Source of the DNA: Gossypium raimondii
Lineage: Eukaryota; Streptophyta; Magnoliopsida; Malvales; Malvaceae
Reading direction: 5' to 3'
Assembly: GCF_025698545.1 (NCBI RefSeq)
Contig: NC_068571.1
Location: 49,385,733-49,449,732, forward strand
Length of the DNA: 64,000 nucleotides
This document shows, one piece after another, positions 6,501 to 64,000 of this stretch. The notes beneath the pieces are model-generated. The model worked only from the letters and a program-made list of their open reading frames with translations, had not been told where the DNA came from and searched no databases. Within the stretch, counting starts at the first letter, position 1; each line of letters opens with the position of its first letter. Made by a program: the position numbers and the translations under genes.

Positions 6501-9500
6501 CCATTATCAGAAATACTGCAAGCCAGAAGAAGAGGAAGTTAAGCATCACACTCACCATAATTGGATTTTTTGTCATAGCCCAAACCTCAACAGGTGCATC
6601 ACGAAATAAAATCAGAAGATACCTGAAAAAGTTAAAAATAACAAGATATTACCACATGCCAGAAATCAGACAGCTAGTTAGACAAAGAAGGGAGCAGAAT
6701 TAGAAAAACATCAGAAAAAGTCAGCCATATTCAGAACATATAAAGGGTTATAATTATCACATTATTGACAACCTCTAACTATGAATAAAAATTGCAATTT
6801 CCAGAAACCAGGTCATTACATATTCCTTTACAAGAAATAAGAATCAAGGGAACCAGCAGGAAGAGATGATCCGCCATCTAACAGACAAGAATGCATATCA
6901 CATATTTTCCGAGATACCTTGGCTACCACGATAATTAATCACCAACCCAAACCGAGGGCCTCCATTCTCTATCTCCAGGGTTTGGTGTTATGAAGCATAT
7001 GCTAAAATTTTCTATTAGCCTTCAAGACCAACCTTGTGTGCAACTGCAGTTTCATTTTCCTTCTACAGATTAATTTTGACAACACAAGTCTAGGGTTTCT
7101 AATCAATATATATCACCATTGCAGTAAATACTGGCTGCATTGACTATTTCTAAGCTGATAATAATAATTATTAAATAACAACATACACAAATGGCAACAC
7201 ACGATAAAAACATGAAATATGGCAGTACAGCATCCATGTTACAGCATCTCTGCTTCCTCCTTTCCTTTACTTTTTGTAATACATGTTTACACTTGTAAGA
7301 GTAGCACACTTCTTATGCATCATAATATGTGGAAACAATCTAAAGTTGTCATATTGAAGGAGCAATTTTTGCATGAAGGGAAGTATGTATCAATTTAAAG
7401 GATGCTGCCAAATGAATGCATTGAGTAATCAAAACGAGAATTTAGAAGGAAAACCTTCCAGATGAAGAAGTCCTTAAAGCTCTTATAGGTGCACGTTCTG
7501 GCTTTTGTAAGACCCGAAAAGTTCTGTTAAGCCCACTTCTTAGACAAGTCACAACAAGTCTGTTAATGTAGCCTCCAGTTTTCTCATTCACCTAAGTCCA
7601 TAGAAGTACTACTAAGGATTAAACTGTCGAACAAAGCAATGATATTAAACAAAGGAAAGGAAGATATGCAGAGAAAGAAGAAATGAAGCTAACTATGATG
7701 CAAATGACAGATATAGTCCTTGGAAACTTGATACACTACCTGTGTGTATGAAAACGAAACCAGTCTTGAATTACCAAGCCATCGTAAGCCCCTCACCATA
7801 CTATTATGAACCGAAAAACTGGATGCAACAGCGTTGGTAGAGACATCAATGACATCAATTGTCCCACTTTGACTACCCAAAGCAACTAGTGGAACTGTTA
7901 TTGCAGGATTATCTCCCCCACCTTTGCAGAATATAGTGTGATTAATAAACTTGTAAAAGTTTCACAGAAATGGAAATTCAGCAGGTAGATTGAGAAGGTG
8001 GAACTAACGAGACATAGTAGCTGTTAAAGAAGGAGATGGTACTGCCAGCATGGTCACCGTTGAAGAAAGAACCTGAAGCTGTCCAACTAAGCTAATCTGC
8101 ACTAATGATTTGGCATATAAGTACGCATGAATAACCGAAAGAACTTGTACCAAGGCAAAATAAAAGGAAGTTGTTCAGAAATAATAAATGCTTTTCATTT
8201 CATTCTCAAAAACAACAAGGAGAAAATTATAAGCTTACAGGGCACCTAAACCATTCTTGATAAAGAAGAGAAACTCAATGACTGTTGTACCAAAATAAAA
8301 TAATGCAGTTATGTCAACAAAGGCTTGGCAGACAAAGAAACCCATTATTTATTTAAAGATCACAAAAAGTAAAATATCTGGCAAGTAATAAGCTTGTTGA
8401 TCAAATTACACTTCTTCCATTTCCAATGGATTCCATATATATCTTCCATACAGTTCAAATATGCAGTAGTTACTCTGATCTCATGGCATCATTTTCCAAG
8501 CTTAACCTTTGACCAAGCATAAAAAAGTAAGTTTGATTTTTCTCTCAATTTGACAGTTAGGTATGCTGCAGCAGCAAGTGAATAAGCATTTCAATGACGC
8601 TCTATAATAAATAAAATTCCAAAACGCTGTTTGGGCCAGAAGAGTACCATAATTAACATCATGTTCTTTTCTGATACAAAGTTCAACATGGCATCTGGCC
8701 AGTATTTTGAATCCCAGCTCAGCCAATTAATTTATGTTAAGATCACTTAATTTTATTGCACTTGCTGTCAATTCCAAGCAAAAATATGTTATAAAGCTAA
8801 AAGCTCAATGACCCAGCAAAAATTGGTCAAGTCTATACATGCCAAGGGCACTAGAAACAACACCCGAGAAAGTTTGTATCACAAACCCTTCAGCACAAAA
8901 TGCATTTTAGCCTGGCAATTCCCTAATCTACCACTTATTCATAGTAAGCCATTCCTAAATCATAAATTGCATCGTTAACAGAAGAGATTTGGGTTATCAT
9001 ACAAGAAAGAAGAAAATATTTCCAAATGCAATAACAACTCTTCCTTTACCAAAGCCGTAATATCATGTCAAAAGTGGACTGAGTCTTCATATAATTGTAT
9101 GATAGGAAAAGGAAGATATGCAATGTTAATATCTCCTATGTGTATATGTGTGGAGAGAAAGTAAAGTCATGACTTATAAGTGCAACTTCATAGATGGGAG
9201 GGCAGGTCAAGGAGCCAGCTAAAGGGGGAAAGAGAACAAAATGTTTCAAAGTTTCCCTTTGTTCAACTGATAAAACTACAGTCATCACATCAGCAAGAAC
9301 TGAGGAACATTCAACAAGAAAAAGGAATATTTTGGCATGCCAGTTAGAAAGTTAAAGAATTTATTTGCAAACCTTAAATGTCACATCTGCAAAGCCAAAA
9401 GTAGAGTTTGGTAGCTGAGTTCGGCTACCATTTATGTTGTCCAGCTGCCTGCTGCCTTCTGCAGCAAGTCCATCCTTAGTAGACACTATGGTGGTGGTAT

Positions 9501-44636: not shown

Positions 44637-44641
44637 CTCTG
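44637..44641. repeat. Target-site duplication CTCTG, left copy
   Basis: Five bases directly before the element start TGTAACACCCC; the same five follow its end at 47707-47711. Confidence 0.85.
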
Positions 44642-47600
44642 TGTAACACCCCTTACCCGTATCCAACACCGGAATAGGGTACGAGGCATTACCAAAACAC
44701 ATACGCTTGTAAACGTATTTAAGTGAGTTATAAAATTTCAACTAAATTAAAACTTTCAAAATAATTAGAATGCTTCTATAACTTTTCACAATATATCCTC
44801 AAAATATTATAATCATAATAATTAGGGCCTACGAGACCCGGTACATACTCATACAATTCAATGCTTCATTTCCATTTCATTTAATTCGCAATTTCTCATG
44901 CTCACAATTTAGATCATATCACTAGCAATTTCCATTTAATTCACGTACAATTCAATGTCACTAAGTTTAACACTAATACGTATTTACCATTTAACTCAAC
45001 GTTTATCGATTATATCATTCAATAACACATTTATGAAATTCTTAATTTTGCAATGAAAATATCACTTTAGCTTAAATAACAACATCATCCCGGTATAAAT
45101 ACACTACCACTTATTCATTTACTTTAATTCATTTGGGCCCATTTGTCACTTACCATCCTTAATCAAATTAGGGAACAGTTACGGAAAATTGAGTACTTCA
45201 CTTTCACTTTGCCATAGTATAACTATGGTCTTACGTATGATCACTTATCACTTGTCCCTGATCAGATAAGTGTAGCCACTTATCACTTTGTTTCTTGATC
45301 AGATAAGTGTAGCCACTTATCACTTTGTCTCTTGATCAGATAAGTGTAGCTAAAGCTATCACTTATCACTTTTCACTTGTCACTTGATCGGATAAGTGTA
45401 GCCAAGCTATCACTTATCACTTTGTCTCTTGATCGATAAGTATAGCGAAGCTATCACTTATCACTTTCCACTTGTCACTTGATCGGATAAGTGTAGCCAA
45501 GCTATCACTTATCACTTTCCACTTGTCACTTGATCGGATAAGTGTAGCCAAGCTATCACCTATCACTTTGTCACTTGATCAGAAGTACTCAAATCCGGCG
45601 TTCCGCTCAATTTGATCATTTATTCAATTTTCGCATTTTTATTTTACTCTCTTTTCAACACTAAATACATTTCATCATACATTATATAATTCATGAAATT
45701 AACATTTAATCATTAAATTTCAGTCATATGAACTTACTATTTCATTATCTTACCACACTTGTTTCCTATACACATCACACAAGATATAAACATAGCATTC
45801 AACCATAGTCACAAGCTAGTATATTTAAACATAACTCTTTTTTGGAACTAACCACATGATAAACCATTCATGAAATTATTTCATGCCAAATCATATACCG
45901 AATATACGATACACACATACTATGAAACTTTATTTTCACACATGAGCTTAAACCAAAACCAATAATTCACAAATATAAGCATTATTTCTATTTCATCGTT
46001 TATCAATTATAATCAAGCATATGACCAATTATACACAAATCATTCATATACTTCGCAATTTTCCTCCTCTTCCTCTCCATTCCACATCCTTAATGTGTAT
46101 AACACACTTAAACAACATTAGCTATAATTTTACTATTCACTCACATGTATATTCAAAGCTGTTTATCCGAGTCAGAGTCACTAAATTATTTTTATCCGGA
46201 GATACAGAGCTCCAAATTAAGATCCGTTAATTTTACCTAAAACTAGACTCACATACTTTCTTACCATAAAATTTTCAGAATTTTTGGTTCAGCCAAATAG
46301 TACAGTTTATTCTTTAAAGTTTCCCCTGTTTTGCTGTCTGACAGTTCCGACCACTCTTCACTAAAAATTAATTATCTCATTGTACAGAATTTGGATGATG
46401 TTTTAGTTTGTTTCTTATAAAATAGACTCATTAAGGATTCTAACCATATAAATTATAACTCATAATCATTTTTGTACAATTTTAATGATTTTCCAAATTC
46501 AGAACAGGGAACCTGAATTCATTCTGACCTTGTCTCACAAAATCTATTATATCTCATGATTTACAATTTCATTACTTACACCGTTTCTTCTATGAGAAAC
46601 TAGACTTAATAAGCTTTAATTTCATATTTTATTCACCCTCTAATTCAATTCCCACAATTTTGGTGATTTTTCAAAGTCAGACCACTGCTGCTGCCCAAAA
46701 CTGTTTAGTGTAATATATTGATTACCAATTTGACTCTAAACTTTTAATACATGATAATTTCGTCCCTAGGCTTGGAAAATGAAATTCTTGCAATATAATC
46801 CTTAATTCAAGCCTAGTATTTCTCATACATATCAATAACAGCCCATAGATTCCATGAAATTTTAGAATTTATCCATGATTTCAATACTTTTCAATTTAAT
46901 CCCTAAAACATGTTTTCATCTAAAATTCTTTAATAAAACACCTTTAAACATCCATTAACATATCAATTTCATCAAAAAATAACAACAATCATATGAACTT
47001 ATCATTAGTATCTTCCAAAACTTTCAACAAAATGAGAAACTAGTAGAATACTAAGTTGGACCTAATTGTAAAAATCTAAAAATATAAAAATTTCAAGGAC
47101 AAAGCAAGAATTAAACTTACGTGAAGCCAAAATATGGAATACCAGCTCCAAACCCTCTTCCATGGCTGTCTCCCACCGAAATTTCAAGAAGAAATGGTCT
47201 TGAAATGCTTAAAATAAAATTTGGCCACATAAACTTTATTGTAATTCCAATTTTGTCCTTAATACATAAAAATCTTAGATTTTTTTTAACGGTATGTCAT
47301 CTCAGCCCCTAAATTGGTCCATTTTCTCTTTTAGTCCTTCCTTATTTAATTGTTAAGCTATTTAATCACTTTAGCAAGTTTTGCATCTTTTCAATTTAGT
47401 CCTTTTTAATTAATTAACTGCCAAAACATTAAAATTTTCTGACGAAACTTTAACACTACCATATTGACACTCCGTAAATATTTATAAAAATATTTACGGC
47501 TCGGTTTATAATATCGAAGTCTCGATACCTCTTTTTCTCAATTTCTTGACTTAATAAATTTTTATAAAATACAAATTACTAATTTAAAAATCTCTTAAAA

Positions 47601-47706
47601 ATCATATTTGGCTCGTAATTATTGATAATAAATTTACGAGCTTATTTTCTGAATTTGGTGATCTCGTACCACTGTTTTCGACATTTTTGAAAATCGGGCT
47701 ATTACA
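44642..47706 (+). mobile_element. 3.07-kb LTR-like insertion (solo LTR or non-autonomous element)
   Basis: Begins TGTAACACCCCTTACCCG and ends AAAATCGGGCTATTACA, with TG...CA termini and a perfect 5-bp CTCTG duplication on both sides (44637-44641, 47707-47711). That is the signature of LTR-retrotransposon integration. It has no gag, pol, primer site or internal LTR pair, so a solo LTR of a large-LTR (possibly Ty3/gypsy) element is the simplest reading; a coding-free retroelement is the alternative. Three further relatives lie at 54.6-64 kb. Open frames inside are short and not protein-like. Confidence 0.85.
45212..45588 (+). repeat. Tandem array of hairpin units inside the LTR-like element
   Basis: Starts with a single 17-base hairpin CCATAGTATAACTATGG (7-bp stem). 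Then come about seven units of 40-57 bases built on GATAAGTG, TAGC, and CACTTATC. In the simple units the stem is GATAAGTG/CACTTATC with a TAGC loop. In longer ones GATAAGTGTAGC pairs with GCTA and CACTTATC around a CAA loop with one bulged base. Confidence 0.85.
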
Positions 47707-47711: not shown

Positions 47712-48400
47712 GACCAATACCTCAATCGGTTCCCAGTCCAGTTGGTCCTACTGTTAGTGTGATTATGAAAAAAACACTAGTTTTGATCAATGACATAACT
47801 CTTTTGATCGTGTCATGTAGAGCAAGTAGGCAGGGAAGCTCGAAAACAAGAGGATAATGCGCTTTAGTACTGTACCCGAATTCACATCCTCTTGCACTAG
47901 CAACAATGCCTATGCTAACTGAACTAAAACTCAATTAGTAGGTTATAAATTACTTACTTTAACATTCATTACAACTATTAATTCAGAAAATTCACATTAA
48001 ATTCCCTTTAAGAAATTTCTCTTCACTCTTGGTTCGTGATGAGTAGAGATTTTGTCGCGGGGATAATGTTTCCACAAACCATCTGCACCATGGTGGGGAA
48101 ACTATTACCCTAAAGAAGCTTCTTCTTCTCCGCCAAGACAACTCTAACCCATATCATTTTAGACACTTTTTTCAATAAATGAAAGTGAATTTTTTTCTAC
48201 ATTGCCGATATAAAAAATGGTAAAAAGAATCACAATTTAAAACGAATAATGTTGCCCCAAGAAAAGTATAATAAAGTCCACTGTTTTCAATTTATTGTCT
48301 TTTTATTTCTGCAGGTTATATTAACTGCATTTTTGTTTTTTTTTTGGTTTCCTTAGTTTATACTGCCTTTCACTTTTGCATGCATTTTCTTGGAGACGCA
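47712..48400. other. Intergenic DNA between LTR-like element and MITE
   Basis: A small open frame at 47722-47934 (minus) shows no recognisable domain. Nothing else stands out. Confidence 0.4.
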
Positions 48401-48710
48401 TGGTTGCAAACTTTGATGGCCTCAACTAAGAATTTCAATGGATCTTAAAGAAATGGGTATTGTATTTTTTCACCTTCAACTTATCTGTTTGTATTTAATT
48501 GATTTTTAAACATTTTTTAGACTTAATTTATATTCTATCACACACTGTGCTACCTTTATAGTAGCACTATTAAATTTTGTTAGAAATATACATAAATAAG
48601 AGTCTAAAAATGTTTAAAAATCAAATAGATAAGTTGAAGGTGAAAAATACAATACCCATCTCTTTAAGATCCATTGAAATTTTAGTTGAGGCCATCAAAG
48701 TTTGCAACCA
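48401..48710. mobile_element. 310-bp MITE, nearly perfect long hairpin
   Basis: The left arm begins TGGTTGCAAACTTTGATGGC and the right arm ends with its exact inverse, GCCATCAAAGTTTGCAACCA. Pairing continues for about 125 bases per arm with few mismatches (CAATGGATCTTAAAGA against TCTTTAAGATCCATTG) around a loop of about 60 bases. There is no coding. The near identity of the arms indicates a fairly recent element. No target duplication is obvious. Confidence 0.88.
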
Positions 48711-49575
48711 TTAGTAAGAGTTTATTCTTTCTAACTAAATTATTTATGTATTTTTTATTGAATGTCTAATTTATTTATGTATCTTTTAAAAATTCTTACC
48801 AGAGGTGAATTCAGTTGTTTTGGCTCTCTAGAAAATTCTAAAAATTTAAATTAGTAAAGGTAAAATTGCACTTTGCTACCCTAAAATTATGAAAATTTCA
48901 TTTAATCCTTTAAAAATTATATAGATATAGACTATTAAAAATTAAATTTTCATTTCAGCTTTGGGCTTAGAGTCCGAATGGCTTTAGGGCCCGGAGGGAG
49001 TTTTGAGAAATTCTTGAATAGATTAGTATAATATTATTTAGTTAAATAGATTTACTCAATAAAAAATTATTATCTTTATAAATAAAAATTTTAGTTTTAT
49101 TAAAATATTTATATTAAATGAATTTATATAACAAAAATAAAAAATAAAGTTTTATATTAAATTACATTATACTATTATGTTTCTATCAATCAAAAGTAAA
49201 AGGAAAAATAATTTTAGGGATCAAATTTTAATTATTTATGCTAAAAATTCTATCAAACGCAGATGTGTTATGAAAATTATGCATTTAGAACACAAAAATA
49301 ATAAAGTATGCATAGTACTATAAATATTATATTAAAATAAAGTTTTGATTTAATGGTAAAATTAGTGTATTAATAATGTAAATAATATGGGTTCATATTC
49401 CATCATGCTCAAAATTTTTATTTATTTTAAAAATAAAAAAATTAAGCTACTATAAAATAATATAACTTATTTTAATTATGGAAGAAAATTTTGATAATTT
49501 CTTTAATCGAGTTGGTGTCCAAATTCTTGTAATAACAATTCAATCAATGATATAGGTAATAAATAATTTTATGTT
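48711..49575. other. AT-rich intergenic DNA with second dispersed-repeat copy
   Basis: About 48790-48980 is the inverted relative of the repeat at 42380-42600. The rest is AT-rich with no gene. Confidence 0.45.
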
Positions 49576-54185: not shown

Positions 54186-54590
54186 GTGAAAATACTCTAT
54201 AGTTTTGATGATAAAAACTCGTATAAACTTAAATTACGAAAAACCTTATGCTTTGTTATAACCCTTTTATAATAAGTAAATTAGGTTAAAATAATATTAA
54301 ATTTATAATATATAACCTTTTTAATAAAGTGTGAAATAACTTTAATAACACTTCTTAGAAATAATATATTTTTTACCAAAATTTTGGAAATTTATTTTTA
54401 TAAATAAGTTATTGAAAAATTATAACAATATTTTATAAATAAGTATATTATTTTATAATATATAGCATTGACACACAAATATGTTACATCTATACTTTTT
54501 GCCATAACCTTTTATAAATAAGAATATTATAACATATAATTTTTTATAATATACTTTTTATCATAATTTTAGAAATTTTATAGGATTTAA
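54186..54590. other. AT-rich stretch upstream of LTR-like copy A
   Basis: Over 80% A+T by eye with TTTTATAAATAAG-like words recurring. No coding signal. Confidence 0.4.
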
Positions 54591-57157
54591 TGTAATACCC
54601 GAAAATTTCTACAAGAAGAAAGTAAGATAGTATCCTTGATATAGTAAAATAAGGAAATAAAGTGACAAAAGGAAATTTTGAGTTATGTCAACATTGTGAA
54701 GTATATTATGACATATTAATTCAAGAAAGGATTAAATCAAAAAGTGAGAAAAATTTTGTTGCTCAAGAGTAAATACTCAAAATTTGAGGGGTTAAAGTGT
54801 AAATATGAAAAGTTGAAGGACCAATAATGAAAATATTTTAAGGGTGGAAATGGATGAATTAGGACCAAATTGAATAGGTGAAGAATTATGAGGGACTAAA
54901 TAGTAATTTTACCAAATTAAGTGATGACTCAAGGATGGAATTTTAAAAGATCATGAAGGGCAAAATGGTCAATTAGAAAGAGAGAGAATTCTAGAAGGAA
55001 ATGATGATATTAGAGATATTTTGATAATATTTTATGATTATTTAATTAGATAAATATTATTTTAATAATATTTAATGATATTTTATTATTATATTTAGTA
55101 TATAAGCAAAGAAAGATGAAGAATTCTCTTCATCTTTCCATGCTACAACGTGAGAAGAAGAGAAAGAAAAGAAATTTTTTTTCTTTACAATTTGGTCATT
55201 TACTTTGAAATCTCACTTTTTCTCTCAAATTCTTTGGAAATTGTCACAACCACCCAAAAGAAGAAGTGAAGTAGAGACATTAGAGAGTTAAAATATCATC
55301 TTGGAAGAGAGAAATTGGAAGTGAAAGTGGAGAAAATGGTAGAAAAAGTGAGGAAATTAAAGAGACAAGGTAAGTACTTCAAGAAATTTACTTTATTTAA
55401 TTTTAATCAAGTATAGAGTATGCTTAATTAGTTGAATTAATTGTGAATGTGCTAATATTATGTATGAAAATTAAAATGGTATATTGAAGTCATAGAAAAG
55501 AGAATAAGTTGTAAAGTAAACAAAATAGGTTATGTGAATTTGAATGTTTAAAAGAGAATACAAATGAAGTGTGGTGATATAAAAAGTGAATGTGTGGGAA
55601 AATTTCAAATTACATCAATTTTTTTATAATAAGAACTAAATTGTAAAGTGTACAAAAGTTTAAGTGTGAAATAGAGTGTTGTGTTAGGAAGTTTAAATGG
55701 AATGTTAAGTGTTAGTGAATTAGTTACAAAATGAAGTTAAAGATTGAAATCAATAGGACAAGGTAAGAACATCAAGATTTCAATATATTTTTGAGTTTGA
55801 TATTATTGAAAAAGTATGAAATTGATGTTAAAGTAGAGTTTTATTATATAAGGTTCTATGTTCTTGATATGTTAGTGAAGGGAAATAAGAGGAAGTGATG
55901 GGAAATATTGTAGAGAAAGGAAAGGAGGGTGTTCTAAATTTGGTTATCAACATTTTACACTAAAACAGTTTTGGACAGCAGTAGTAGTCTGACTTTGAAA
56001 ATTCACCAAAAATCGTAGAAATTGAATTAGAGGTTGAATAGAATATTTAATTAAATTTTATTGAGTCTAGTTTTCCATAGAAGAAACGGTGTAAGCAATG
56101 GAATTGTAAATTATGAGATATAATAAATTTTGTGAGACAATGTCAGAATGATTTCGGGTTCCCCTGTTCTGACTTTGTAAAATCATCAAAAAAATGCAAA
56201 AAATAAATAAATAGGGGTTTAAATTTATATGTTTAAATTCTTAATGAGTCTATTTTTAATAGAAACAAACGGAAACATCATTCAAACCCTGTACAAAGAG
56301 ATAATTAATTTTTAGTAAGCAAAGGTCGAAGCTGTCAAACAGCATAACAGGGATAAATTTGAGGATTTTACTGTACTTATTGGCTAAACTATAAATTTTG
56401 AAATTTTTATGGTGGAAAGATATTTGAGTTTAGTTTCAAAAACATCAAGCAAATCTTAATTTATAATTTTTTAGCTCAAGATATAAATAATTTATTGACT
56501 ATAACTCAAGTGGACAACTTTGATATGAACATAAGTAAATAGTAGAATTATAGATAATATTACATATAAGCATGATATATACATTAAGGATGTGGAATGG
56601 AGAGGAGGAGGAAAGAAATATATGAATATTCAACTAGCATGAGTTTTCATTAAAATGGTTAATTTGAATGATTCGGGCTCAAGGACTAAATTGAATAAAA
56701 TCAAAATTTTAGGGTAATTTTGTAAAAATGTCAAAATGACCAAATTGTATGAAATGAATTATTTTATTATCTAACTTAATAAATTTAATGAAATTATTTA
56801 ATTTAGATCGAGATTGGGAGGAAAATAGAGGAAAATAGAAAATTACAAAAATGCCCCTGAATCTTGGTATTTCTGCAATTTAGCCTGGTAAGTTCGTATG
56901 AACTATATTTTGTATAATTTTGATTAAAGTGAATGTTATTTGGTGATGGATATTATGTATATATGTGTTCTATTGTTGGAATTGAATTTTGATTAGTGAA
57001 TGAAAAAAGTGAATTTGACATTGGAAGTAAATTTTGAAATGAAAGTGAATTTGAATTGAGAATTAGAAACCCTATTAACTAGTCGGGCTGAGTCGAATAT
57101 AGTTGGTATGCCATAGGATTGGAAGAGTTCAGGGATAATTCGACCTCGAGTTGATGA

Positions 57158-57286
57158 GACACTGGGTGTCACTATTTTACTTCGTATAGATTCGATGAGA
57201 TATTGGGTATCACTTTACTTCGGCTAGGCCGATGAGACACTGGGTGTCAACATTGCTTCGAACTATCAAATGAGGCACTGAGTGCC
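57158..57286 (-). repeat. Four 13-base hairpins with changing stems, copy A
   Basis: The four units are GACACTGGGTGTC (57158-57170), GATATTGGGTATC (57199-57211), GACACTGGGTGTC (57236-57248) and GGCACTGAGTGCC (57274-57286). Each is a 5-bp stem with a three-base loop, spaced about 38-41 bases and often preceded by GATGA. The stem pairs stay complementary (one T-G pair in the second) though bases differ. Confidence 0.85.
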
Positions 57287-57540
57287 AATCTGATGTGTTT
57301 GGTTGGATCCGTGAATCTGCCAAAGTCGGAGTCTGTTAATAAGGGTAATTAATTGAAAAGTTAGATCGAACGAAATGAATCAGTTGAGCCATTAAAAAGA
57401 AACGTGATTGAGGAATATAATTTGAAAGTGTGAATTGAATTATTATTATAAATATATATTATCGAATTTAATACTCAGTTTGGATTAACGCGGGATTGAG
57501 TACAATCGTTCTGTGGCAAAGGATGAATAGACGGATAAGA

Positions 57541-57727
57541 CCATAACTGGGTTATGGCATTATGAACGTAAGACCATGGTTGGTCGACCATGACCGTGTT
57601 TACATGTAAGACCATAGCTGAGCTATGGCATTCTGATGATAAGACCATAATTGGGTTATGACATTACAAATGTAAGACCATGGCAGGGCCATGGCAATGC
57701 ATGTGTAAGACCATAATTGGACTATGG
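57541..57727 (-). repeat. Six 17-base hairpins with covarying stems, copy A
   Basis: Units follow CCAT-NNN-loop-N'N'N'-ATGG: CCATAACTGGGTTATGG (57541), CCATAGCTGAGCTATGG (57612), CCATGGCAGGGCCATGG (57678) are perfect 7-bp stems. Those at 57574, 57645 and 57711 are near-perfect. Units are 33-38 bases apart and start with GTAAGA or ATAAGA. Confidence 0.88.
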
Positions 57728-59669
57728 AACAAAAAGAACGATGTACTCATATTCGTAAGCTGTTCTTCGATTCAGTAAGAAATGGTAAGAGACTTATGTA
57801 ATTGAATTAAAAGATTTATAGATTATTATTAATATTGGTCTGAAGGAAGTGTGTTTATTGATTATATTGTATTTGACAAGGAAATTATGTATGTTGAGAC
57901 GAGTAATAAACTCAAGTGTGACATGTTGAGAAAATAAGTTTATCAATGTTGAATTTATATGTAAAATGTGCAAGTACGCTAACCAGTGTTGTTGCTTGAT
58001 GTTTAGGCAAGTGCCAAGCTATTGGTTGATTGGTAATATGATTATTTATATAATGTATTGAATTGGTAAGTATTTAAGTGAAAATATGCTAGTGCTCATG
58101 AAAAAGTGGTAAGGTTTAAATTATGCAATTTCTTATGAAATGATTTATCATGTGAATCAATTCGAAAAAGGCTTTGGTTAAATGCTCTAGCTTGTGACCA
58201 TGGTTGAATGATATGTTTAGGACTTGTGTGTCATGCATATGGAATAAGCATGGAAAGTAATGAAATGCAAATGAAAATAAAGAAATTCGGAAGAATGTAA
58301 AGTTGTTTAAAATCCTATTATGCTAGGGATAATATGTACAAGTGATGATGTGGATCTATTTACCTTGTGAGTTGATGAATATAGCCACATGAGGATTATG
58401 GTATCAATATTAAATTATTCTTGATATTTATAAATTTCATAGTTGAAATGAATGGACCTGATTAAAGTTTATACGAGCTTATTAAGCATTTATTGTGTGA
58501 CACCCATAACCCGTATCCGTCGCCGAATTAGGGTTATGAGGCATTACCGGACCTAACAGGATAAAACATAATCACGGAACACTCTTAATCACTTAATCAT
58601 GAAGTTACTTTTATGACTTTGACAACATAACTAATCACAAATAGATTCAATTACAAATCAACACTAATAAAATTTATCATTTATTCCATACTTAATAGTC
58701 AACTTCACTGACATATACTAAACCATCAAAACAATTAACGATGCAAGTATTACCATCACAATCGAATTCTAATACTCAAGGCATATTAGGACTTAGATAC
58801 CTTTCATATCAATTTACAATTTAACTTATTACCAAATTCATATATAGATGTGCAATTCATTTGAGTCAAATAAATAAATAAAAGCAAAACATCCACATAT
58901 AATACATTATGTCAAATAAATATATTTATTCACAAAATCCAATAACTTATCAATTAACAACCATACCATCACATATTCATGCTATTATATCAAATAATTT
59001 GCCATGACATTTAAATTTCTCAAATATATGAGTCAAAACCGAATGCATGTATTATTAAAACGATAGATATGTCATGCTTAAATAGCCAACAAATTTCATG
59101 TAATTTATACACATTTAATCATAATCATTTAACATATTCAAACCTAATATTCATCCAATTCACGTATATATATTTATAACATTATTTAACCATTTAAATA
59201 CATATCATGTTCGAAAATATAATTTCTTTACACTTAGACTTATAACAACATATAAGGCCGAACATGCATAGGTGATTACTCATCCATTAACTTATCTATT
59301 AACTAGTCACTTTACTCATATTTTCTTTTAAGCCCTAGCTTAATACAAACATTCCTTAGTAGAGCATATTAACCATATCACATCCATGATACAGCTTAAT
59401 CGGAATCTTACACAAACATGTCTATAGCAACTATAATTCACAAATTAGTTCCTCAAAGCCAAAATGATATAATCCGAACCTAAACCTAATAATCTAATCC
59501 ATAAACAAACCTATACACTTTCAAATGTATGATAAATCTCATAACTACATACAACAAGTCTCAACCATAAATATCACTCACATATATGAACCATACAAGT
59601 TGCATCATCAACTATGAAATAATATTCAATTCATGAACCTATTTCTAAGCCAAATAAGCTTAACCACAG

Positions 59670-62600
59670 TGTAACAACCCGATTTTTGGGTCTAGTTGGA
59701 ACAATGGTTTCGGGACCACAAATTCAACGAGGAAAATTTTATTTTTATGGTCTACAATTTCACAGAATGATTTCGTGAAAATTTCGTTCGAAAATTTCGA
59801 CGTTTGAGCACTCAATTTATTTAAAAAGTCAAAATTGATATGTAATACTCCAAAAATTTTTACAGTAAGATATTATCTTTGATATAGTAAGGAAATAAAG
59901 TGACAAAAAGCAGAATTTTGAGTTATGACGACATTGGGAAATATATTATGACATATTAATTAAAGAAATGATTAAATTGCAAAAGTGAGAAAAGTTTTGT
60001 TATCTAAGAGTAAATACTCAAAATTTGAGGGGTTAAAGTGTAAATATTAAAAGTTTAAGGACCAATGGTGTAAATATTTTAAGGGTGGAATAATCTAGAA
60101 ACTAAGGAAAATGGATGAATTGGGACCAAATTGAATAGATGAAGAATTATGAGGGACTAAATTGTAATTTTACCAAATTAAGTGATGACTCAAGGATGAA
60201 ATTTTAAAATATCTAAGGAAAAATGGTCAATTAGAAGAAAGATAAATCTAGAAAATAATGATGATGTTGGAGATATTTTAGATTAAATAAATAAATATTA
60301 GTTCATTAATATTTTAATTTAATTTTTAAATGACATTTTATCATTTTATTATTATTTTATTTAGTATATATATATGGAAAAAAGATGAAGAATCACCTTC
60401 CTTTCCCATGCATTTCACGTTAGAAGAGAAGAGAAGAAAGAAAGTTTTGCTTTATTTACAATTTGGTCCTTCCATAAAAAATTTACCATTTTCACCTAGA
60501 AATCAAAAGAATTTCCATAGCTACCAAGAGAGAAAAATGTTAAGGAGACTATGGGGAGCTAGAATATCAAGTTAGATTCAAGAAACAGATGCTGGAGGAG
60601 AGAGAAAATCAAGTTAAAGATTGAAATCAATAGCACAAGGTAAGAACATCAAGATTCCAATATACTTTTGAGTTTGATATTATTGAAAAAGTAGGAAATT
60701 AATGTTAATGTAGAGTTTCATTATATAAGGTTCTATATTCTTGTTATGTTAGTAAAGGAAATAAGAGAAAGTGATGGAAAATATTGAAGAGAAAGGAAAG
60801 GAAGGTTTTATAAATTTAGTTATCAACATTTTATACTAAAACAGTTTTGGACAGCAGCAGTAGGTTAAGTTTGAAAAATCACCATAAATTGTGGAAATTG
60901 AATTAGAGGTTGAAAAAATATTGAATTAAATATTATTTAGTCTAGTTTCTCATAGAAGAAACGGTGTAAGTAATGGAATTGTAAATCATGAGATATAATG
61001 AATTTTGTGAGACAAGGTCAGAATGAATTTGGGTTCCCCTATTCTGACTTGGAAAAATCATTAAAATTGTATAAAAATAATTATGGGTTATAATTTATAT
61101 ATTTAAAATCCTGAATTAGTCTATTTTAATAAAAATAAACGGGAAATCATCCAAATTCTATAAAATAGATAATTAATTTTTAGTGAAGAGGGGTCGAAAC
61201 TGTTGAACAGCAAAATAGGGGAAACTTTAGAGAATAAGCTGTACTTATTGGCTAAATAAAAAATTCTTAAAATTTTATGGTAAGAATATATGTGAGTCTA
61301 GTTTCAGGTAAAATTAGTGGATCTTAATTTGGAGCTCTGTAGCTCGAGATAGAAATAAAATAGTGACTCTGACTCAGACAGACAACTTGAATTTACATAA
61401 AGGAAAATAGTGATAGTATGGATAATGTTGATTAAATGTGTTATACACATTAAGGATGAGGAATAGAGAGGAGGTGGAGGAAAAATTGGAAAATATATGA
61501 ATGATTTGTGTGTAATTGGTAATACACTCGATTATAATTGATAGACGATGAAATAAAAATGATGCATATATTTGTGCAGTATTGGTCATGGTTTAAGCTC
61601 ATGTAGGAAAATAAAGTTCATAGTACGTGTGTATGGTATATTTGGTATATGATTTGGCATGAAGTAATGTCATGAATGAGTATTGAATTAACACATGTTG
61701 GTAAGTTTGATACATGAATAAATATTGTGATCATGAAATGGGTGGTAAGGTTTAAATTATGAAATCTTTAGTGAAATGGTTTATTTTGTGATTATTTCCA
61801 AAAGGAATTATGTTTCAATGCACTAGCTTGCGACTATGGTTGAACGATATGTTTATGTTTTGTGTGATATGCATAGGAAACGAATGTGGAAAGGTAATGA
61901 AATAGTAAATTCATACGGCTGAACTTTTATGATTAATTGTTAATGTGAGAATGATATAATGTATCAATATGTATATTGTTGTTGAATTATGATTATGGTA
62001 AAAATGAGAATAAGATAAGATTGTTAGTTCAAATTAAGGGATACGCAGGATTGAGTACATATGTTCGGTAACCAGTGATGAATTGACGGATAAGTCCATG
62101 GTGGATCCATGGCAAAGTGTGAAACGTAGGTATGGTATTTCAGTGAAGAAAACCATACTGAGTTGTGAAAAGTAGGTATGGTATTTCGATAAAGAAAACC
62201 ATACTGAGTTGTGAAAAGTAGGTATGGTGTTTCAGTGAAGAAAACCATACTGAGTTGTGAAAAGTAGGTATGGTGTTTCAGTGAAGAAAACCATACTGAG
62301 TTGTGAAAAGTAGGTATGGTATTTTCGTGAAGAAAACCATACTAAGGTATAGCAATGTGAAATATTCAAGCAAATCATGGCACCGGGCAAACGATGTACT
62401 CAAATCCGTAAGACGATCCTTAATTTGACAAGTATTTGTAGTACAATTGAAGCTAAATGTTGGAATATAAGTTGACATCTGATATTGAGCTCGACTGAGA
62501 AAATTCATTATTTGAGATTGTGGTTGGCAGGAAATGTTACATTATATATATTGTGAAGAATTATAAAAGCATGTTAATAATTTGAAAGTTTTAATTTTTT

Positions 62601-62701
62601 TAATGAAATTTTATAACTCGGTTCAATACGTTTACAGTGTATGTGTTTTGGTAATGCCTCGTACCCTATTCTGGTGTCGAATACGAGTAAGGGGTGTTAC
62701 A
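59670..62701 (-). mobile_element. LTR-like family, copy 2, nested in copy C
   Basis: On the minus strand it starts TGTAACACCCCTTACTCG, with TAGGGTACGAGGCATTACC as in the element at 44642, and ends (plus-strand left end) TGTAACAACCCGATTTTTGG, the counterpart of that element's CGGGCTATTACA end. Its length of 3032 bases equals that of the first copy within 1%. Flanks are CACAG (59665-59669) and CAAAG (62702-62706), a 5-bp duplication with one change. No coding. Confidence 0.75.
62097..62342 (-). repeat. 46-bp tandem array, five hairpin units, copy 2
   Basis: Begins with the single hairpin CCATGGTGGATCCATGG (62097-62113), corresponding in position to the first hairpin of copy A. Then five units start at 62130, 62176, 62222, 62268 and 62314, exactly 46 bases apart. 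Each holds GTATGGT and ACCATAC as a 7-bp stem around a loop of 15-16 bases. Confidence 0.9.
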
Positions 62702-63525
62702 CAAAGCATCATCTAAATCCAATATGTCAAAAGCAAGAGTACTAAACTTTACCCATCAAACATATTTGCCTTAGCCGAATATATACATTACCTAAATCTA
62801 ATTAACCATGCACATGATAACATAAGCATATACTCCATATTGTCCATTAAACTATATGCATCAAAGTCAAATTCAAACAAAAAGAGATAAGCCATTTTCG
62901 CATGGCTTTTAAATATGCATACACATTGGTTCCAAAATCAACATTTTAACTATGCTATACATGTCATATATTTGAAAACAATTTAGCAAAGTACCAAAAG
63001 AAAATGTCAGTGTGATGGGCTTAGCTGACGATCCCCGAACACATAGCGATCACCAAAATCTATACATCAAAACAATTATCCAACACATTGTAAGCTAATT
63101 TAGCTTAGTAAGTTACAAGCAAATAAACTCTACAATTTAACTTGATATCTCGAATAATATTTAACCAATTCATACTACTAAATCATCTTTCCTTTAGCTT
63201 ACCATATCATAAGATAATTATTAACTTAATACTATGATTTAACTAAAATCAATATAATTACACAACCATAAGCATTTCTTCAAATTTAAATACAAGGCCA
63301 AATACATTATGCATTTCATCATCATGTAATATAAAGAATCATCTTATATATATATGATTCCAAATATAATCAGCACATAGGTTTAATACTTACAAAGCTC
63401 AACCTTGAATACAACCATAACGGTTATTACTCAAGAACTCCAAGTATTTACTCATTTTACTATCATGATTTCTCAATAAGTCAAATACTCAATGCTAATA
63501 GTTATTCAAAAATATTTAATAAGTT

Positions 63526-63665
63526 CACACACTTAGTGCTTAATAATCAAACTCGCACACTTAGTGCTTTACCATTAAACTCGCACATTAAGTGCTTTAC
63601 AATTAAACTCACACTTAGTGCTAATCTCATTATTATAAATTTTTATACCTGCACACTTAGTGTCG
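63526..63665 (+). repeat. ~28-bp tandem array with GCAC...GTGC units, copy C
   Basis: Five units containing CACACTTAGTGC or variants (CACATTAAGTGC, CACACTTAGTGTC), two of them followed by a shared TTTAC-ATTAAACTC spacer. The core CACTTAGTG is an imperfect palindrome. Confidence 0.75.
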
Positions 63666-64000
63666 AAAGTCAGCAACTCAATACATATTATTTCAATAAT
63701 TTTATCACTACATGTATATATATATACCATTCAATTCATCATAATTACATAGATACTAAGATGATTTAAAACGATACAAATATATATGCTTAATAACTTA
63801 CCTCGAATGTCGTCGACTAATAGATCGGCTACTCAACTACTTTTGATTTCCCTCGAACTAAATCTGATTTCTTGGTTTCTTGATCTAAACATATTCAAAT
63901 AAATCTCATTTAAATATATTTTCATTCAATTTAGTCTAAGAACACATAAATGAGAAAATTACATTTTTACCCCTAATATTTCACATTTTCACAATTTAGC

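Follow-up and report, generated by a model that had tools for sequence, protein, structure and literature searches.

The DNA analysed here, a stretch of 64,000 nucleotides from Gossypium raimondii (referred to below as the window), contains a tandem array of six short hairpin units (57541-57727) located in a fragment of a long terminal repeat (LTR), copy A, as well as two other LTR copies, viz. B and C, which carry arrays of different hairpins (Table 1). No LTR end was found for copy A, and the terminus of another element starts at 58496. A candidate start of copy B at 59841 (TGTAATAC) was rejected, as the flanks CACAG/CAAAG place its start at 59670. The LTR ends at 62636-62706 and 44637-44707 are of the form GTAATGCCTCG...GGGTGTTACA, and the terminus at 58496 (TGTGACACCC...GAGGCATTACC) resembles an inverted form of these ends, so that such LTRs may be bounded by inverted repeats some 50 bases long. 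The segments 58496-59669 and 62702-64000, on either side of copy B, have the appearance of a single older element split by the insertion of copy B, with the CACAG/CAAAG duplication. Further, a 312-bp self-complementary stretch at 48400-48711 (arms 82% identical) resembles a fold-back element, and a neighbouring element has, at 63528-63622, a 28-bp array of GCACTTAGTGC palindromes, which is perhaps of the same kind as the arrays considered here.

Table 1. Features of the hairpin arrays and of the LTR copies carrying them in the window
Feature	Position	Strand	Description and basis
Copy A	54591..58495	+	LTR fragment holding the array; block similarity to copy B and sequence
Left closing-stem arm, copy A	57493..57512	+	GGATTGAGTACAATCGTTCT; sequence and RNA minimum free energy (MFE) fold
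Hairpin unit U1	57541..57557	+	CCATAAC-TGG-GTTATGG; perfect 7-bp stem; sequence
Hairpin unit U2	57574..57593	+	CCATGGT-TGGTCG-ACCATGA; loop of 6 bases; sequence
Hairpin unit U3	57612..57628	+	CCATAGC-TGA-GCTATGG; perfect 7-bp stem; sequence
Hairpin unit U4	57645..57661	+	CCATAAT-TGG-GTTATGA; one T.G pair; sequence
Hairpin unit U5	57678..57694	+	CCATGGC-AGG-GCCATGG; perfect 7-bp stem; sequence
Hairpin unit U6	57711..57727	+	CCATAAT-TGG-ACTATGG (AAT/ACT); one A-C mismatch; sequence
Right closing-stem arm, copy A	57735..57754	+	AGAACGATGTACTCATATTC; sequence and RNA MFE fold
Copy B	59670..62701	+	Solo-LTR-like; flanks CACAG / CAAAG (one mismatch)
Copy B cassette	62048..62407	+	Closing arms GGATTGAGTACAT / ATGTACTCAAATCC; T3 units at 62118-62343 (GTATGGT..ACCATAC); fold z -7.19
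Copy C	44642..47706	-	Solo LTR; flanked by an exact 5-bp target duplication (CTCTG, + strand)
Copy C cassette	45183..45596	-	Closing arms GGATTTGAGTACTTC / GAAGTACTCAATTTTCC; T4 units at 45240-45577 (GATAAGTG..CACTTATC); fold z -8.00

The array of copy A is part of the LTR of a Ty3/gypsy family. In one element of this family (locus L068) the structural features of a Ty3/gypsy carrier are present, viz. two LTRs of 2.1 kb (280-2378 and 7203-9288 of the locus; 92.7% identical), a primer-binding site (TGGTATCAGAGC, which we take to be a tRNA-iMet primer site) after the 5' LTR and a polypurine tract (GGGGGAGGG) before the 3' LTR. The Pfam domains RVP_2, RVT_1, Integrase_H2C2 and SH3_Tf2-1 (protease, reverse transcriptase, integrase zinc-binding and Tf2-1-like SH3) follow one another in the gypsy order, and a gag match scored 20.4 bits, below the cut-off of 24.1. 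Models of the chromodomain gave no match in the six pieces scanned; the assignment of the carrier to the Tekay/Del clade of chromoviruses is our guess. The initial annotation had placed the array in a non-coding retroelement and overlooked that the family includes coding Ty3/gypsy elements.

Within the copy A array, direct reading of the sequence confirms U1, U3 and U5 as perfect stems, and the frame CCAT...ATGG, which had been ascribed to all six units, holds for U1, U3, U5 and U6, whereas U2 and U4 end in ATGA, the outermost pair being broken in 2 of 6 units. The inner triplets had been given correctly for five units, but the AAT/ACT of U6 was absent from the list and the loop of U2 has six bases. 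The statement that pairing is mostly kept is borne out, as 16 of the 18 inner pairs are Watson-Crick and, when the 3' arms are re-dealt among the six units, this number is reached in 4 of 720 permutations (mean 9.3). All differences within the array are transitions and, due to this, the array taken alone is no more than suggestive. The A-C mismatch copy of U6 recurs in the genome-wide list of matches with A.C at pair 6. In the RNA MFE structure, 17 of the 20 bases of the left closing arm pair with 57735-57753. When folding is unconstrained, U5 is the sole unit forming a full local hairpin and U2 forms a partial one; U1, U3, U4 and U6 pair across units, which is possible as adjacent units are palindromic. 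This cross-unit pairing of 4 of the 6 units, together with the penalty of 9.4 kcal/mol incurred when all six local hairpins are imposed, counts against interpreting the array as a structured RNA. No Rfam covariance model matched positions 54500-63000 at E values up to 1. Just upstream, at 57153-57249, is a second hairpin array, GATGAGACAC-TGG-GTGTC, with the variants GGCAC/GTGCC and a TGG loop; its frame has 426 matches in the genome (54 for the reversed control), and its diversity genome-wide is low, most of the matches listed being GACAC/GTGTC.

The tandem hairpins are confirmed as real and genome-wide. The genome searched was that from which the window comes (750.8 Mb, 281 contigs), and the frame AAGACCAT-NNN-TGG-NNN-ATGG (AAGACCATNNNTGGNNNATGG), in which the inner bases are free, has 8,365 matches in it (4,230 + 4,135) as against 0 for the reversed control. 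Among 100 matches listed, all from one contig, the inner triplets are fully Watson-Crick complementary in 84, the types being GTC/GAC (48), AGC/GCT (10), AAC/GTT (9), GGT/ACC (7), AGT/ACT (6) and ATC/GAT (4). A sample of units of this frame, referred to as T1, was obtained from the window and 80 fetched regions (L009-L088; 60 around listed matches of the left flank described below and 20 around listed frame matches) by fixing the outer bases and flanks and leaving the inner triplets free, which gave 234 units from 59 sources. The units with a TGG loop are of the types GGT/ACC (29), GTC/GAC (29), AGC/GCT (22), AAC/GTT (21), AGT/ACT (19) and ATC/GAT (5), and the GGC/GCC units have other loops. 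As one frame is common to all T1 types, they are not derived from several separate chance palindromes, an origin the initial annotation had considered.

In the 47 arrays with at least two units (214 of the 234 units), the inner bases pair in 574 of 642 cells when the two arms of one unit are compared, and in 1,513 of 2,844 when the arms are from different units of an array; none of 5,000 within-array permutations reached 574. Pairing within the unit is favoured in 41 of these arrays and the reverse in none, with 6 ties. The independent events are fewer than the cells, because this permutation keeps the make-up of the copies but not the descent among them; pairs altered in both arms, in excess of what relatedness would give, are brought out by it, with few independent events. 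The initial claim that pairing is retained despite sequence change is thus upheld in excess of the relatedness within arrays, and the other copies extend it. The excess also indicates that it is local complementarity that has been retained, despite the free fold of copy A. It could be supposed that a few chance palindromes in an ancestor decayed by C-to-T and G-to-A changes on both arms and were then multiplied by copying. The exclusive occurrence of transitions in the copy A array is in accordance with this, as is the descent of many copies from a few masters, due to which the counts overstate the independent events. However, this explanation is improbable in view of the permutation result, the double transversions that separate types (GTC/GAC within T1; AGCTC/GAGCT and AGCAC/GTGCT within a second family, T2) and the unrelated self-complementary arrays found at one site; further, decay yields one-sided changes, such as those seen in recent copies.

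The array lies in a cassette bounded by an inverted repeat, TTGAGTAC.../...GTACTCA, at a fixed place in the LTR (in L068, about 1.3 kb into each LTR and about 800 bp downstream of a TATA-like motif). This closing repeat and the other arrays at the same site, including those of copies B and C, had been overlooked in the first reading. The pattern of the left flank, TTGAGTACNNNNNTTCNG, occurs at 607 places in the genome (reversed control, 140), and the fetched regions and the window provided 47 cassettes with both flanks (3 of them from the window), those lacking an exact flank being excluded. T1 arrays are present in 23 of these cassettes, T2 in 10 and T3 in 11, T4 is represented by copy C, and 2 are unclassed; T2, T3 and T4 are hairpin families separate from T1 at the site of the latter. 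The T2 units (AGCTC/GAGCT, AACCC/GGGTT, AGCAC/GTGCT and others) have a TTAT-like loop, the T3 units are of 46 bp (GTATGGT..ACCATAC), and those of T4 are GATAAGTG/CACTTATC. With its inner stem bases free, the T2 frame has 332 genome matches (reversed control, 96); all five pairs are complementary in 59 of the 100 matches listed, viz. AACCC/GGGTT (29), AGCTC/GAGCT (20), AGCAC/GTGCT (8) and two others. A looser extraction of T2 (76 matches from 28 sources) includes non-hairpins. In the cassettes of L017, L047, L019 and L048, T2 hairpins come after T1 hairpins, which gives the impression that parts of arrays can be joined or swapped.

The cassettes fold better than their shuffles and the flanks do not. 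The median z values of the sense strand are -3.5 (T1), -2.8 (T2), -4.7 (T3), -7.2 (T4) and -0.5 (unclassed), and those of the antisense strand -3.9, -4.2, -4.2, -7.0 and -1.1, respectively, whereas upstream and downstream flanks of T1-T3 give medians of -0.2 to 0.1. In separate folds of the window cassettes, z is -4.68 for copy A, -7.19 for copy B and -8.00 for copy C. The antisense strand of T1-T3 thus folds as well as the sense strand, which does not favour a structured RNA. An alternative that we regard as quite improbable is that the units are symmetrical DNA sites bound by a protein dimer, viz. enhancer dyads of the LTR. LTRs do bear transcription-factor sites, and the outer CCAT/ATGG is constant in T1. 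However, a binding site fixes letters, and here the letters vary and complementarity alone is kept; T1 and T2 are also without a common half-site, and a closing repeat around the array would not be expected.

The closing repeat itself varies in a paired manner. In 46 of the 47 cassettes (one lacking GTACTCA was dropped), the positions immediately following GAGTAC and immediately preceding GTACTC are occupied by A/T in 24, G/T in 10, T/A in 8, A/A in 2, A/G in 1 and A/C in 1, and the two bases of this closing pair change together in most cassettes, T/A being the state of copy C and of one T1 subgroup. The outer part of the closing stem is GAACG..CGTTC in most T1 and T2 cassettes, compared with GGAT..ATCC in T3. 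Another group of LTRs with GTC/GAC units has a closing stem of its own, CCCGTTGA..TCAACGGG; 6 loci of this group were found, two of them outside the search pattern, and in the 4 examined this stem pairs completely on folding in L073, L075 and L079 and with one gap in L084. One of these loci, L075, aligns with the T1 locus L029 over 74 bp and with the T3 locus L010 over 773 bp (77%), on account of which this group and the cassette LTRs are partly related. An unbiased search for closing stems in flanks of 230 nt gave a weak result, with 6 of 41 arrays exceeding all 60 shuffles. A rough tree of 46 cassettes based on short flanks, which has long branches and in which the placement of copies B and C is doubtful, would require the closing pair to have changed 9 times and the cassette type 8 times; it is given no weight here.

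A comparison of copies provides information on when pairs change. Of the 234 units, 160 are exact matches to one of seven types, 52 have one change, 2 have one change per arm, 10 are further off and 10 are in another frame. In four LTR or neighbour pairs, of which only that of L068 is shown to be both LTRs of one element, 134 stem pairs are unchanged, 32 are changed on one side and 2 on both sides with pairing kept, where 1.5 would be expected. As regards the possibility, raised in the initial annotation, that stem changes in other copies affect one arm only, recent changes private to a copy do hit one arm, but the types differ on both arms together. Since recent genomic changes are nearly always one-sided, resident copies drift, and pairing was maintained or created chiefly in the replicating lineage and not by repair in the chromosome. 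A cruciform or hairpin of the DNA that functions in the chromosome or is corrected there, to which the initial annotation had also pointed, is therefore already disfavoured and, in our view, very improbable. Under DNA parameters the copy A strand does fold with local hairpins (z -3.76), but changes in resident copies affect a single arm at a time, and substitution in stems (3.4, 3.7, 4.1 and 4.3% in four subfamily groups) is only slightly lower than in unpaired columns (4.6, 3.8, 6.2 and 5.1% in the same order).

The strand on which a fold would be required can be approached from imperfect pairs. In a perfect palindrome, the outward context is the same for a 3'-arm C as for the C that lies opposite a G of the 5' arm; selection on sense RNA is predicted to leave more G.T than A.C pairs, and no selection equal numbers. 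At the variable pairs 5 and 6, the genome counts are 222 G.T vs 125 A.C and 85 G.T vs 52 A.C, respectively, whereas at pair 2, where all types agree, 204 T.G and 204 C.A are found, which suggests that mutation itself is strand-symmetric. However, the independent G.T events are few, since part of the excess comes from inherited types such as GGC/GCT, which accounts for 16 of 100 pair-5 G.T matches listed, its mirror AGC/GCC accounting for 4 of 100 A.C matches listed. The outermost pair 1 goes in the opposite direction in the sample (C.A 34 vs T.G 5), and this excess is probably an inherited ATGA form. T2 is without a wobble bias (AACCT/GGGTT 6 and AACCC/AGGTT 6 among 100 matches listed), and within subfamilies there are 27 G.U vs 21 A.C. 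The strand counts are mixed and lean toward RNA; the partly inherited nature of the G.T excess, the unbiased T2 and the weak closing-stem search nonetheless weigh against a structured RNA.

The main and serious rival to selection on a fold is templated copying during reverse transcription, in which the growing strand folds back or switches template inside the hairpin, so that one arm serves as the template for the other (quasi-palindrome correction), slippage multiplies the units and the pairing is a by-product. We consider it possible, although unlikely. Tandem arrays and palindromes favour template switching, and this process would account for pairing arising only in the replicating lineage and not in resident copies. 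However, it does not readily explain that the closing stem, whose arms are 200-400 bases apart, also changes on both sides, or that several unrelated array families occupy one fixed site, and inherited G.T types outnumber A.C types. A requirement for a fold in a replicating single strand would best explain the fixed site, the unrelated self-complementary arrays, the two-sided closing stem and the mostly one-sided loss after insertion taken together.

Based on these considerations, the array is interpreted, with a probability of roughly 0.5, as part of a structured domain in the Ty3/gypsy LTR, most likely of the element RNA. The data show a fixed site, bounded by the inverted repeat, with short self-complementary units, whose sequence differs between units and subfamilies although the arms remain complementary, and genomic copies that lose pairing one side at a time. 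On this interpretation, selection would have maintained the fold of one strand, in all likelihood that of the element RNA, in the replicating element, while unit number and sequence would turn over by tandem duplication and replacement. Because the cassette is downstream of the TATA-like motif and upstream of the primer-binding site, it may, by this less firm argument from position, lie in the 5' leader, and perhaps also in R, of the genomic RNA. By analogy with known leader and R structures, a multi-hairpin domain of the leader could have a part in packaging, dimerization, strand transfer or 3'-end formation. A more specific form of this interpretation, which we put forward tentatively and at slightly less than even odds, is that of an RNA module defined by structure only, where selection asks for nothing but a closed bundle of hairpins, and sequence, unit number and unit family are repeatedly replaced (T1-T4, T1-T2 hybrids) with the closing stem covarying.

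Plant LTRs form a large share of many plant genomes, and few functions are known for their long non-coding stretches. In the open literature, covered by titles and the beginnings of abstracts and with most subscription journals and preprints outside this coverage, no earlier description of such hairpin arrays was found, and two exact patterns matched 0 viral contigs. Residual conservation in long R regions has been tied to stem-loops (PMC3601003), and the cassette is similar to these retroviral leader and long R stem-loops in being a non-coding part of the LTR, and putatively of the leader, that is conserved in structure. However, the latter are defined single elements, whereas the units described here are tandem, multiplied and replaced by unrelated hairpins. 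For yeast Ty1 and Ty3, the portion available of another account describes structures of the genomic RNA for dimerization, packaging and priming, and calls the Ty3 RNA structure uncharacterized (PMC4974528). The predicted domain would likewise be a cis-acting structure of an LTR-retrotransposon RNA, but that portion speaks of pseudoknots and palindromes and does not mention a tandem hairpin array (PMC4974528). The quadruplex motifs of plant LTRs are also recurrent structure-forming sequences at discrete places in the LTR, although the available part of that report deals with quadruplex and triplex motifs and not with arms changing together (PMC3902901).

If a fold is indeed kept while its letters are replaced, this would suggest that plant retrotransposition depends on an RNA step, be it packaging, dimerization, strand transfer or 3'-end formation, and would provide a handle for testing it. 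It would also help in telling structural selection apart from copying of a template by reverse transcriptase, both of which leave covarying pairs. Further, if the module is defined by structure only, an RNA domain that is functional and hitherto undescribed would be represented in one genome by thousands of copies, which would amount to a library of natural mutants.
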